A stretch of 21,214 nucleotides of DNA from a virus. The notes below the pieces were generated by a model. It saw nothing but the letters and a program-made list of their open reading frames with translations, had not been told where the DNA came from and did not search any database. Positions 5,927 through 21,214 of this stretch are shown here, piece by piece (positions within the stretch are counted from its first letter, which is position 1; every line of letters begins with the position of its first letter). Both the position numbers and the translations under genes were made by a program. The stretch covers positions 1-21,214 of the IMG/VR virus record IMGVR_UViG_3300003322_000244; one strand, given 5' to 3'.

Positions 5927-7513
5927 CTATGCGAGAATGCTGTCGAGCCACGTACCCGTCACGTTGTCGAGGAAGACCTGTCCACCCTTGCCGCCTGACG
6001 CCACGCGTGGATGCAGTCCGTCGTCCGACATGTAACTGACACCCGGCACGGCGTAGTATTGGTCGCCAACGACCTGCGTGTTCGTCCATGCGCTCGTCAC
6101 GGTGATATCGCCATTCGTATTACCGTTGCCGGATTTCGCCACGCCAACGTTCGCACCGGTCAGCGGCTGGACAAAGCCGTTCACGATCGTGCTGGAGCCC
6201 GAGGCATAGTTCGAGTTGAACCGTGACGTCGAGATGACTGAGCTGACCGTGATCAGCGAGACATCAGGCAGGAGCGTGTCCTCGCCTGCGATCTTCCACC
6301 GTCCGGCATCGCGCGACGGCTCGACAGCGTCACCCCATTCGATCACGGCATCTACGTTGCCGCCTCGTATCCACGAGTTAATCTGTCCGCGATTGGAGCC
6401 GGAGCCAGCAGCCCATGCCGTCTGCGGCGTTTGGAAATTGGCCTCTGACGTAAACTTCCACGACTGAATGGTGATTGTGCCTGTGGCGGTTGGCGACCCT
6501 GATCCTTGAAACAGAAGCGTCACCGTGTTCGCCGTTGTGTCCCGAGCCGTGCAAATCTTCGAGCCGTTGTATTCCGCCTCATTCGCTCCAGCGATTGAGT
6601 ACGGCCTACCGACACGGAATAGACTTGCGTCCGCCACCTGAGCCGTGATCGAATTGCCACTCGACGTCAGCGTAGCGGAGATCGCCGAATTCTGATTGAC
6701 CCGAGGCGTCATGGTCATCTGTCCGAACTTCATGCCTGCGGCCCTGACAGCGTCTCGCATCGTGGTTAGCCAGCCCTGAAGCTGCGCCACTGTAGCACTG
6801 GCTCCGAAGTCGTTCGTGCCGAAGTTCGTCACGACATGCGTACAGGCGAGTTTGGCCGCAAGATCAACCTGCTTGGAGAAATTGCCGTTCGTCGCGTAGG
6901 TCTGCGCCGTGGTGCCAGAGATGGAGTTGAGATAAGCCGGGCATCGGCTGGCAGCAGCATTGATCAGCGCTCCGCCGTTGTTTGTCATGATGCTATCTCC
7001 GAAGCCCGCAACGGCGGCCTTGACGAGTGTATTCGACATCGCATGGACGCGAAGACCAGCGAACCCTAGCGCCGTGATGTACGTTGCACCGTTGGCCGGA
7101 GTGGCCGACAGGTTCACCTTGAAGCTGCCTCCAGCCGTAATTCCTGCACTCAGTGCAATATCTGCGCTCTCATTGTTGAGACCGGGCGTGACCGTCGTGT
7201 TCGGGATCGTCCCGACCGTTGTCCCAACCGGGAACTCGATCGTCCCACTAACGACATACGAAGCTGAGCAATCTGTTGTACCGGTTGTGCGCAGCGTCCA
7301 TCCCTGCAGCACGACCGAGCACGTGTTGATCGTCGCACCGGAGCGATTGACAAAAGTTCCGGCATAGGTCTTCTGAGTTCCGTCACCTGTGAGCGGTGCA
7401 GCACCAGAATTGTAGCCCGGACCCGTGACCGTGTGTGCCAGCTGCTTAAGCATCACTGGGCCGCCAGCATTGCTGCCGATCAGCAAAAGACGTCGTCTAC
7501 GCCGGTTTGTCAT
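5927..7513 (-). CDS. SGNH-hydrolase-type virion protein
   Basis: This 528-residue protein starts at ATG 7513. It carries the SGNH blocks in order: GDS at 172-174 (block I, candidate nucleophile Ser174), GTND at 232-235 (block III), and DGLH at 498-501 (block V, Asp-x-x-His). Residues 30-160 form a Thr/Gly/Ala-rich beta domain, and 270-480 is again beta-rich between the catalytic blocks. SGNH enzymes hydrolyse esters, including acetyl groups on polysaccharides. In a phage structural cassette this suggests a tail or spike protein that deacylates host capsule or lipopolysaccharide. The catalytic motifs are seen; substrate and virion location are inferred. It lies between terminase and portal and is separated from each by short gaps. 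Confidence 0.7.
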   Translation of the reverse strand: MTNRRRRRLLLIGSNAGGPVMLKQLAHTVTGPGYNSGAAPLTGDGTQKTYAGTFVNRSGATINTCSVVLQGWTLRTTGTTDCSASYVVSGTIEFPVGTTVGTIPNTTVTPGLNNESADIALSAGITAGGSFKVNLSATPANGATYITALGFAGLRVHAMSNTLVKAAVAGFGDSIMTNNGGALINAAASRCPAYLNSISGTTAQTYATNGNFSKQVDLAAKLACTHVVTNFGTNDFGASATVAQLQGWLTTMRDAVRAAGMKFGQMTMTPRVNQNSAISATLTSSGNSITAQVADASLFRVGRPYSIAGANEAEYNGSKICTARDTTANTVTLLFQGSGSPTATGTITIQSWKFTSEANFQTPQTAWAAGSGSNRGQINSWIRGGNVDAVIEWGDAVEPSRDAGRWKIAGEDTLLPDVSLITVSSVISTSRFNSNYASGSSTIVNGFVQPLTGANVGVAKSGNGNTNGDITVTSAWTNTQVVGDQYYAVPGVSYMSDDGLHPRVASGGKGGQVFLDNVTGTWLDSILA

Positions 7514-15682: not shown

Positions 15683-15708
15683 AAATAGCAAGAACTTTCT
15701 TGCTATTT
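15683..15708 (-). terminator. Hairpin at the HNH gene end
   Basis: AAATAGCAAG (15683-15692) and CTTGCTATTT (15699-15708) form a perfect 10-bp stem with a 6-nt loop. It includes the HNH stop codon and its minus-strand transcript ends in UAUUUAAA. It may be a weak terminator that travels with the inserted gene. Confidence 0.6.
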
Positions 15709-16131
15709 CCACGTGAGGTGGTTAACAATTTGCCACACATTGCCGACACTGAGCCTGTAATCGTCTGCTATATGTTGAAACTTATGGCCTTGTTTACGTC
15801 TGCGGCGAATTGCGGCTACATCTTTTTCGGTCAGTCTTGTGCGTCCGTGGGTCTCGCGACGAGGATGACGTCCATTTCTTATTGCGTCATGGACGTTGTC
15901 TGCCGTGGTGCCGTAGGCTAGATTGTCTAGCTTGTTATCGGCTTTCACGTCGTTGAGATGGCGTGTCACGAGATTTGATGGACGAGGTCCTAGAAATGTC
16001 TCCGCAACTAGACGATGGACTGCCCAGCCAAGCACAAAGGCGTAACCATTTCGCCACTCTATGACAGCGAACGTGAATACTATTCCCTGATCAGAGACCC
16101 ATAATCCGCTTTGTGCGTGTTGCTTAATCAT
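15703..16131 (-). CDS. HNH homing endonuclease with HTH tail
   Basis: This 142-residue protein starts at ATG 16131 with no good ribosome binding site. The HNH core is VHRLVAETFLGPRP (38-51) and TRHLNDVKADNKLDNLAYG (56-74). Expected metal and catalytic residues are His39, His58 and Asn60, plus the Asn-Leu end. A C-terminal helix-turn-helix (residues 99-140, RLTEKDVAAIRRRR ... SVGNVWQIV) gives DNA binding, as in free-standing phage homing enzymes. The region is visibly more AT-rich than its neighbours and ends in its own hairpin, which marks it as a mobile insertion between host-takeover genes. It cuts DNA of related phages lacking the gene; target not deducible. Confidence 0.85.
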   Translation of the reverse strand: MIKQHAQSGLWVSDQGIVFTFAVIEWRNGYAFVLGWAVHRLVAETFLGPRPSNLVTRHLNDVKADNKLDNLAYGTTADNVHDAIRNGRHPRRETHGRTRLTEKDVAAIRRRRKQGHKFQHIADDYRLSVGNVWQIVNHLTWK

Positions 16132-17169: not shown

Positions 17170-17667
17170 CTAAGCGTCCTCCGTGGCTGGGGCGAACTCG
17201 GCCGGACGGGTGCAAAAGTCAATCGTGCGGCGGAGGCGGGGTTCGGTCGGGATGTAGCCGCCCATGGCGTAGTGGGCATAGCCGTTGGCGTCGGCCTCCC
17301 ATGGCTGGGCGCAGTAGCCTGCTTGGCCGGGATAGATAGGGAGGCCATAATTGATACCGTGCCATATGATGCCACCTATGCCGTTGCTCTTCAGCCACCC
17401 ACGTCGATGCTGTACCGCGTGGCGCAGTTCGTGAATGTAGACGAACAGGATGTCTCGCTCATTCATCATGTCGTGCATTTCGTCGCTGAAGAGGAGATAG
17501 GTCTCCTCGTCATATAGGAGGTTGTAAGACTGCACGAAGCAGGCGGTGGGATGATTGAACGAACGACGTACCTCTAAGTCCGCGACTTCGTCAGCGGGAA
17601 AGTACGTCAGCGCCTCTTTCAGTGTGACTGCTTGGCGTTCGGTCAGGGTGGTTTCATTCCGGCGCAT
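17170..17667 (-). CDS. HExxH zinc metallopeptidase-like protein
   Basis: This 165-residue protein starts at ATG 17667 behind AAAGGA. The zinc motif is HELRH at 79-83 (Glu80 catalytic), within VYIHELRHAVQH. A later EADANGYA (Glu124 as likely third ligand) gives the gluzincin pattern HExxH...E, as in ImmA/IrrE-like proteases. The preceding residues are acidic (FSDEMHDMMNERD) and Cys44, Cys119 and Cys152 are isolated. ImmA-type enzymes cut repressors or toxins, and a phage version could inactivate host defence regulators. That is inferred. It is the second zinc protease in the window, distinct from the SprT-like one. Confidence 0.7.
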   Translation of the reverse strand: MRRNETTLTERQAVTLKEALTYFPADEVADLEVRRSFNHPTACFVQSYNLLYDEETYLLFSDEMHDMMNERDILFVYIHELRHAVQHRRGWLKSNGIGGIIWHGINYGLPIYPGQAGYCAQPWEADANGYAHYAMGGYIPTEPRLRRTIDFCTRPAEFAPATEDA

Positions 17668-19909: not shown

Positions 19910-19937
19910 CGGCGAACACCCTTCGTGTACTCACCAT
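19902..19937 (-). CDS. Possible 11-residue leader ORF with ideal ribosome binding site
   Basis: ATG 19937 is preceded by AAAGGAGGTG with 7-nt spacing to the GGAGG core, the best site in the window. The ORF reads MVSTRRVFADA and ends at TGA 19904-19902, overlapping the start of the 53-aa gene by 8 nt. It also overlaps the 3' end of the 66-aa gene by 7 nt. It might be a leader peptide that couples translation, or a chance ORF beside a ribosome-loading site. Confidence 0.4.
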   Translation of the reverse strand: MVSTRRVFADA

Positions 19938-20131
19938 TTGAACACCTCCTTTCGGTGTTGTATTTCCTTGTCGATACGATGGATCTTATCCGTCCATCGT
20001 ATCAGCTCATTCGGCTCCGCACAGTTGCCAAATCTCCAGTCCCGAAAACGAAACTGTTCTTTAACTGCATGGATGCGAAGATCTATTAACGTCGCTGTGT
20101 CATACGCGGCGTAGTTAGGCTTCCACGTCAT
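19931..20131 (-). CDS. Hypothetical protein, 66 aa
   Basis: ATG 20131 overlaps the flavoprotein stop by 4 nt (ATGA). The product is a helical, charged protein (ATLIDLRIHAVKEQFRFRDW; ELIRWTDKIHRIDKEIQHRKEVF), possibly a coiled coil. Its codon use is more AT-rich than that of the flavoprotein gene. Its last codons contain the strong ribosome binding site for the next ORF. No family is recognised. Confidence 0.65.
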   Translation of the reverse strand: MTWKPNYAAYDTATLIDLRIHAVKEQFRFRDWRFGNCAEPNELIRWTDKIHRIDKEIQHRKEVFKW

Positions 20132-21081
20132 GAGGCTAGATACCCGTGGATCATCTGTAGGGCCCCGACGCCCTCCCCAATGGCGGTTGCGATACGCTTC
20201 GTGCTGCCGCTGCGGACATCACCGGCAGCGAAGACACCCGGCATCGACGTCTCGTAGTACTGAGGCACATCGATCAGAGGACCAGTAGCGACGAAATTGT
20301 GATCGTCCAGTATGACGTCGCCTTTCAGCCATAGCGTCTTCGGCACGGCCCCGATGAAAATGTACATGGCGTCGCAGGCGATCGTGCGCTCCACCCCGGA
20401 CTTGACGAGGACGACCTTTCGCAGGCACGTGTTGCCGACACAGGCTTTCACCTCGCATGCCTCGATCACCTCGATCCGCTCGTTTAAACGAATGCGCTCG
20501 ATGAGGTAGGTACTCATGGCGTCTTCGATACCACGGCGGATGAGGAGCTTAACGTCTAGTCGCTTGTCTTTGGCGAGACCCAGAGCGGCTTGCCCGGCGC
20601 TGTTGGCGCCACCTATCACACAGACGGTCTTGATGTGTCCAGCGAGCCGCTGCGTCGGCGACCCGTAATAGACGCCACGGCCGATGAATTGGCCAATGTT
20701 GTCAGCCGCAAGGCGACGGTATTGCAGCCCCATGGACAGCAGCACGCTGCGGCTCGTGTATTCAGAATAGTCGTCGCACAGCACGGTGATACTGCCGTCC
20801 GGGTTCTTCGTGAGTTTTGCTGCGGCTACGGGACTAATGACCGAGGCCGCGAACTTCCTCGCCTGTCGGGCCATGTTGCCCATCAGCTCCTCGCCCGTAA
20901 TGGCGTCCACGAAGCCGGGGTAGTTTTCGATGCCGGAGCTTTCCTTGGCTTGGCCACCCAGCATAAAGCCGTTATCGAGCAGGCGGACGTTGAGACCCTC
21001 ACTGCCGCCATTGATCGCAGCGGAGAGCCCTGCGGGCCCTCCACCGACGATGAGAAGATCACTTGTACATGTTGGCTTCAT
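20128..21081 (-). CDS. Thioredoxin-reductase-like flavoprotein lacking CxxC
   Basis: This 317-residue protein starts at ATG 21081, overlapping the previous stop. It has the two-dinucleotide-binding fold: FAD motif GGGPAG (13-18), NAD(P)H motif VIGGANSAG (155-163), and the C-terminal FAD loop VFAAGDVR (283-290). It is close to TrxB in length and order, but the position of the redox CxxC (about 135-140) reads GVYYGSPTQ with no cysteine. It therefore cannot reduce thioredoxin by the TrxB mechanism. It resembles bacterial TrxR-like oxidoreductases that lost the disulfide. It may oxidise NAD(P)H with another acceptor. As a phage gene it is an auxiliary metabolic gene. A GTTTAAAC site lies inside it. 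Confidence 0.8.
   Translation of the reverse strand: MKPTCTSDLLIVGGGPAGLSAAINGGSEGLNVRLLDNGFMLGGQAKESSGIENYPGFVDAITGEELMGNMARQARKFAASVISPVAAAKLTKNPDGSITVLCDDYSEYTSRSVLLSMGLQYRRLAADNIGQFIGRGVYYGSPTQRLAGHIKTVCVIGGANSAGQAALGLAKDKRLDVKLLIRRGIEDAMSTYLIERIRLNERIEVIEACEVKACVGNTCLRKVVLVKSGVERTIACDAMYIFIGAVPKTLWLKGDVILDDHNFVATGPLIDVPQYYETSMPGVFAAGDVRSGSTKRIATAIGEGVGALQMIHGYLAS
20482..20489. repeat. GTTTAAAC palindromic site inside the flavoprotein gene
   Basis: An exact copy within the palindrome TCGTTTAAACGA on the minus strand. It is intragenic and encodes Arg-Leu-Asn-Glu, on the same minus-strand reading phase as the terS site (codons CGT TTA AAC). Confidence 0.85.
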
Positions 21082-21214
21082 CGTCCATTCACCACCTTTC
21101 CGACGCCGATGCTCACGCTACCCCAATACGCGTCCTGTCTGGACGCGCACGAGGTGACGAGGCCTGCGGCCGCCAAGCCTAGGAACAAGCCGACTGTAAG
21201 CAGGCCCCGCCAGT
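21078..21214 (-). CDS. Lipoprotein, 5' end outside window
   Basis: An open frame enters from the right edge and ends at TGA 21080-21078, overlapping the flavoprotein start by 4 nt. The visible part is a hydrophobic segment (LLTVGLFLGLAAAGLV) followed by TSC, a lipobox-like cleavage site with the lipid-bearing Cys, then a short mature part (ASRQDAYWGSVSIGVGKVVN). Small outer-membrane lipoproteins in phages include Rz1-type spanins, but the truncation prevents an assignment. It supports a Gram-negative host. Confidence 0.6.
   Translation of the reverse strand, partial: WRGLLTVGLFLGLAAAGLVTSCASRQDAYWGSVSIGVGKVVNGR

Follow-up and report, generated by a model that had tools for sequence, protein, structure and literature searches.

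The locus and its genomic setting

The window, i.e., the whole stretch of DNA analysed here, is the virus record IMGVR_UViG_3300003322_000244 (positions 1 to 21,214; 21,214 bases). It carries genes for both subunits of the terminase (large and small) and for an SU10-type portal, as well as an AAA/helicase-like gene. Hence, it belongs to a phage, as the preliminary description had proposed. The gene under study, on the minus strand, is an open reading frame that starts with ATG, encodes 317 aa, and has no internal stop. Its product resembles thioredoxin reductase (TrxR). The gene, its motifs, and the two flanking ORFs are as follows.

21078-21212, minus strand: incomplete upstream ORF that runs off the end of the window, lipoprotein-like, with a lipobox-like LVTSC (sequence reading)
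20128-21081, minus strand: stand-alone gene for a CxxC-less TrxR-like flavoprotein of 317 aa (ORF, Pfam and TIGR profiles, structural model, tree)
21028-21045, minus strand: FAD-binding GGGPAG, residues 13-18 (G13, G15, and G18 invariant where aligned)
20650-20676, minus strand: GVYYGSPTQ, residues 136-144, replacing the canonical CxxC (alignment to canonical TrxRs)
20593-20613, minus strand: NAD(P)H-domain motif GGANSAG, residues 157-163; the family signature NSAGQ runs to residue 164 (alignment)
20506-20538, minus strand: R182-Y192 region, with the signature R...MSxYL in place of the TrxR motif HRRxxxR (alignment)
20425-20457, minus strand: C209, C214, and C219, in beta strands of the NAD(P)H domain (alignment and model)
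20194-20223, minus strand: GDVRSGSTKR, residues 287-296, C-terminal FAD-domain signature (alignment)
19931-20131, minus strand: 66-aa ORF coupled downstream of the flavoprotein gene (ATGA overlap at 20128-20131; no family)

The upstream partial ORF also overlaps the start of the flavoprotein gene by ATGA and has no PHROG match. The flavoprotein gene is surrounded by small ORFs, far from the head genes, and its GC3 (0.73) is like that of the remaining phage genes of the window. It is a candidate auxiliary metabolic gene: it lies in a phage genome, has cellular homologues, and is conserved. The coupled 66-aa ORF had been taken as a functional clue, but it matched no family, has no relatives among viral contigs, and no gene like it neighbours the flavoprotein elsewhere. 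A functional link between the two is therefore unsupported. Elsewhere in the window, we observed a free-standing HNH endonuclease (15703-16131), an esterase-like protein (PHROG 8480) between the terminase and portal genes (5927-7513), and a weak match to DUF6782, a putative metallopeptidase family (17170-17667), of which contig L045 also has a relative. A tRNA scan of the window found none.

Fold, motifs, and cysteines

The protein matches the Pfam profile Pyr_redox_2 with 96 bits and scores 181 bits against the TrxR equivalog TIGR01292, below its cut-off of 343. The predicted structure has the TrxR fold (pLDDT 95.4, pTM 0.90). The model is closer to the FR form of TrxR (5mh4, TM 0.86) than to the FO form (5mjk, 0.63). 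The canonical TrxR of contig L046, folded with the same rows as a control, gave 0.84 and 0.67, respectively, so the FR-like conformation is not specific to the window protein.

The two columns that hold the CxxC of canonical TrxRs are occupied by G140 and Q144, and the 317 residues contain no CxxC anywhere. The reading of the gene as TrxR-like but devoid of redox cysteines, with GVYYGSPTQ at the expected site, is thus borne out. Y139, G140, and P142 are invariant across the eight-sequence viral alignment, and no family member examined has a cysteine pair at the CxxC columns. The claim that the FAD and NAD(P)H motifs are intact stands for GGGPAG and GGANSAG. It does not stand for HRRxxxR, the canonical NADPH-specificity motif, which is degenerate: its first arginine, R182, is the sole residue of it that is invariant in the family. 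Across the family alignment, R182 and Y192 are invariant, with M189 and S190 nearly so; the residues that are invariant or nearly so also include the FAD motifs, Y139, N160, and G287-D288-R290.

A conserved cysteine pair relocated elsewhere in the protein would have told against the loss of the active site. The alignment of homologues revealed none, and not one of the seven cysteines of the window protein is conserved across its viral clade. C209 is shared with the relatives in contigs L019 and L161, C214 with L161, and C219 with L019. As these cysteines are only partly present in the nearest two relatives and all three are missing from L020, a relocated pair is not a trait of the family. They may have a lineage-specific role. 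It is highly improbable, in our view, that they turn the protein into a disulfide reductase acting on thioredoxin or another disulfide, because this partial sharing is set against the lack of conservation across the clade, and because all three are located among the beta strands of the NAD(P)H domain, away from the CxxC site.

A family of sensor-fused flavoproteins in bacteria

The closest cellular relatives are the C-terminal domains of proteins of ~550 aa, with about 37-46% identity. Their N-terminal parts match the Pfam families cNMP_binding or Response_reg, and the linker between this sensor and the flavoprotein domain reads like a Trx fold. They are annotated as "cyclic nucleotide-binding domain-containing thioredoxin-disulfide reductase" or "FAD-dependent oxidoreductase". 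The window protein carries the signatures of this family (GG[AG]NSAGQ, MSxYL, IGAxPxTxWL, and GDVRxGSxKR) and clusters with it in the tree, separately from canonical TrxR (100/100 against the outgroup). The window ORF begins at the flavoprotein domain and has no receiver or cNMP domain ahead of it. Hence, the protein is a stand-alone relative of that domain and not a full member of the fusion family.

To assess the architecture in bacteria, we searched a profile of eight viral sequences against 1588 genomes, a sample of four phyla (399 Pseudomonadota, 397 Actinomycetota, 396 Bacteroidota, and 396 Acidobacteriota) that were taken from the loci L122, L061, L066, and L084, respectively. The copies at E<1e-80 are long open frames in almost all cases. 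Five short frames that were inspected (L195-L199) are cut by the contig or, by reading, frameshifted, and five borderline matches (L190-L194, 1e-66 to 1e-72) turned out to be canonical TrxRs with a CxxC. No bacterial copy that truly stands alone turned up among the cases checked, which cover all but a few of the short or partial matches. Likewise, the best 80 genome loci have an open frame of at least about 95 aa before the domain, unless the contig starts within the gene. A shorter front part of ~110 aa occurs in the bacterial members L200 and L201. The bacterial homologues had been described as stand-alone or fused. They are overwhelmingly fused, and the stand-alone form is, in the samples searched, a trait of phages.

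The next gene downstream could be read in 71 of the bacterial loci L047-L126. In 34 of these 71, it falls into a single cluster, represented by a protein with cNMP and HATPase domains (histidine-kinase-like), and in 11 it is a zf-UBP gene. Searched by pattern, zf-UBP genes occur in 25 of the 80 bacterial loci and in none of the 31 viral ones. Having kinase and zf-UBP genes as neighbours, the bacterial fusions may play a role in signalling. Given the sensor-fused architecture, together with these neighbours, the activity of the bacterial flavoprotein is presumably switched by a signal.

Phage-borne relatives

Two scans of uncultivated viral contigs with family alignments identified 30 contigs with family members, in addition to the canonical TrxR L046; a scan of these contigs with a single sequence recovered no relatives. 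In 24 of the 30, the gene is stand-alone or, by reading, consistent with it. This count includes two genes cut by contig ends and the pairs L021/L022 and L040/L041, which look like near-duplicates. Two contigs (L030 and L031) have long front parts and are placed among or near the bacterial fusions, and one (L034) has a short front part. In the last three, the related domain is the C-terminal part of a long phage ORF. The front part is portal-like in L180 (a match to Phage_portal_3 at E 1.8e-7, slightly below the cut-off of that profile), XkdF-protease-like with weak Pfam support in L044 (E 0.004), and a phage sequence without family assignment in L189. The window and most of these relatives are metagenomic fragments.

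The window protein falls in a nine-row, all-viral clade of stand-alone proteins (bootstrap 100, SH-aLRT 99), together with L019, L161, L020, L025, L028, and L022-L024. The family phylogeny thus places it within the CxxC-less family and apart from canonical TrxR. The best tree, with three changes, would point to independent captures by phages, yet the AU test does not reject a single viral clade (p 0.08), so that one origin of all stand-alone viral forms is compatible with the data. Values of dN/dS among L022-L024 are 0.07-0.13; they are rough, as dS (above 1.5) is near saturation, and they come from relatives of the window gene.

The phage backgrounds of the stand-alone relatives differ, and no neighbour gene is conserved across them. 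The gene is next to tail tube and baseplate genes in L019, between the portal and head maturation protease genes in L025, and next to a DnaB-like helicase in L028; the neighbours in L022-L024 and L028 are non-structural. A kinase or zf-UBP partner was not seen next to the phage form. Relatives of the window's terminase lack the flavoprotein gene and flavoprotein carriers lack such a terminase, which is weak evidence because fragments were compared.

All matches in 50,697 records of isolated phages have less than 37% identity to the window protein. Those inspected proved to be canonical TrxRs, with one exception: MT838110 is a long fusion of receiver-type length that probably comes from bacteria. 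The DNA pattern GVYYG[ST]PT matched seven contigs, and none of the frames inspected belongs to this family. We also observed an N-terminal CxxC, followed by a third cysteine directly before the FAD motif, in L027 and L033, and a YHGT-like, ADP-ribosyltransferase-fold-like sequence beside the flavoprotein in L026 (5486-6001) and L180, the one in L026 having no Pfam match.

Comparison with known systems

The phage form shares with the bacterial cNMP- or receiver-fused FAD-dependent oxidoreductases the CxxC-less TrxR-like domain (~37-46% identity) and the NSAGQ, MSxYL, and GDVRxGSxKR signatures. It lacks their N-terminal sensor/linker part of ~230 aa, and also a single cysteine that is kept in 74 of 80 bacterial members and is missing from the whole clade of the window. 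With its stand-alone viral relatives it shares the clade, the free-standing form, and Y-G-x-P at the CxxC site. Low-Mr TrxB, including gp344 of phage G, has the same fold and the same FAD and NAD(P)H domains, whereas the window protein lacks the CxxC and retains HRRxxxR only in part. Gp344 of Bacillus phage G (L018, PHROG 6397) is itself annotated as a ribonucleotide reductase large subunit, while its sequence is that of a canonical TrxR with CAVC; hence, the label of PHROG 6397 carries the same error onward. AhpF and AhpF-like proteins also have the TrxR-like domain and, as in the bacterial fusions, an N-terminal partner domain; AhpF depends on cysteine pairs in both parts (PMC8945050).

The TrxR-like FNRs share the fold and, like the window protein, lack the CxxC (PMC10294844). 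One could thus read the phage protein as an FNR, which we find very unlikely. Its matches to FNRs in the PDB are weaker than those to TrxRs (best E 4e-21 versus 3e-33), and its signatures are those of the fused family. Furthermore, FNR chains extend 19-38 residues past the matched part, in a C-terminal extension with a flavin-stacking residue, whereas the model of the window protein stops with the last helix (297-316).

CxxC-less TrxR-like proteins are thus already known in the form of these FNRs. What appears to be new is the stand-alone phage form of a sensor-fused family. A literature search that left out most subscription journals found no papers on this family or its phage forms.

Possible function of the phage protein

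The reading that we favour, and hold to be probably correct, is that the gene encodes a sensor-free and unregulated flavoenzyme, which depends on NAD(P)H and delivers the electrons to an acceptor other than a thiol, and that it is a copy of the output domain of the bacterial CxxC-less family. The analysis shows the predicted fold, the family membership, the loss of the cysteines, the stand-alone viral clade, and the purifying selection among the relatives; the choice of cofactor, the acceptor, the constitutive activity, and the benefit to the phage are inferred. The literature searched contains no family member with known biochemistry, and enzyme activity is for this reason also deduced. Going by its homology, the protein most likely forms dimers, as TrxR does, and binds both FAD and NAD(P)H. 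In the bacterial form, a receiver or cNMP-binding domain and a Trx-fold-like linker are attached to the flavoprotein domain; the phage retains the catalytic part alone. NAD(P)H would reduce the FAD. With no cysteine relay, electrons would leave directly from the flavin, towards a small acceptor (O2, a quinone, or similar) or a protein partner. Without the sensor domain, this activity would not be switched. The draining of NAD(P)H put forward in the preliminary description is plausible under this scheme, and the low dN/dS of the relatives argues for an active enzyme.

TrxR-fold proteins act as dimers. The phage domain might accordingly pair or compete with the sensor-fused homologue of the host and disrupt a signalling or stress pathway, any turnover being perhaps secondary. 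We regard such interference as unlikely. The protein is indeed the output domain of a bacterial signalling protein minus its regulatory part, carried by different types of phages, but a pure decoy would not need the catalytic motifs that are retained, and for heterodimers one would expect more than the identity of at most 46% seen with known copies from bacteria. It is rather improbable, too, that the enzyme is assembled into the virion or delivered with it. The domains at the C-terminus of the portal-like, XkdF-protease-like, and unassigned ORFs speak for this, as do the positions of the gene between head genes in L025 and close to tail genes in L019. Yet, the XkdF part of L044 has little Pfam support, the window gene is among small ORFs at a distance from the head genes, and L022-L024 and L028 have no structural neighbours. 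That the gene is a host gene decaying without function is barely conceivable: the catalytic cysteines are gone, but so they are in the whole family, and the open frame, the invariant motifs, and the low dN/dS in relatives tell against decay.

Returning to the unregulated flavoenzyme, it looks as though phages acquired the catalytic end of a bacterial signalling enzyme and left the control switch behind. We suggest, tentatively and with more doubt than confidence, that the uncoupled output enzyme of the receiver- or cNMP-controlled redox signalling family recurs in phages, either free as a constitutive overrider of the redox signalling of the host or built into virion proteins. If true, this would be a new kind of host-takeover factor. 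As a caution for annotation, such phage genes should not be labelled as thioredoxin reductases. In the phage gene, a signalling flavoprotein that is widespread in bacteria is reduced to a single domain. This minimal form could help to identify the missing electron acceptor, and its separation from the sensor part makes the regulation of the bacterial fusions testable.
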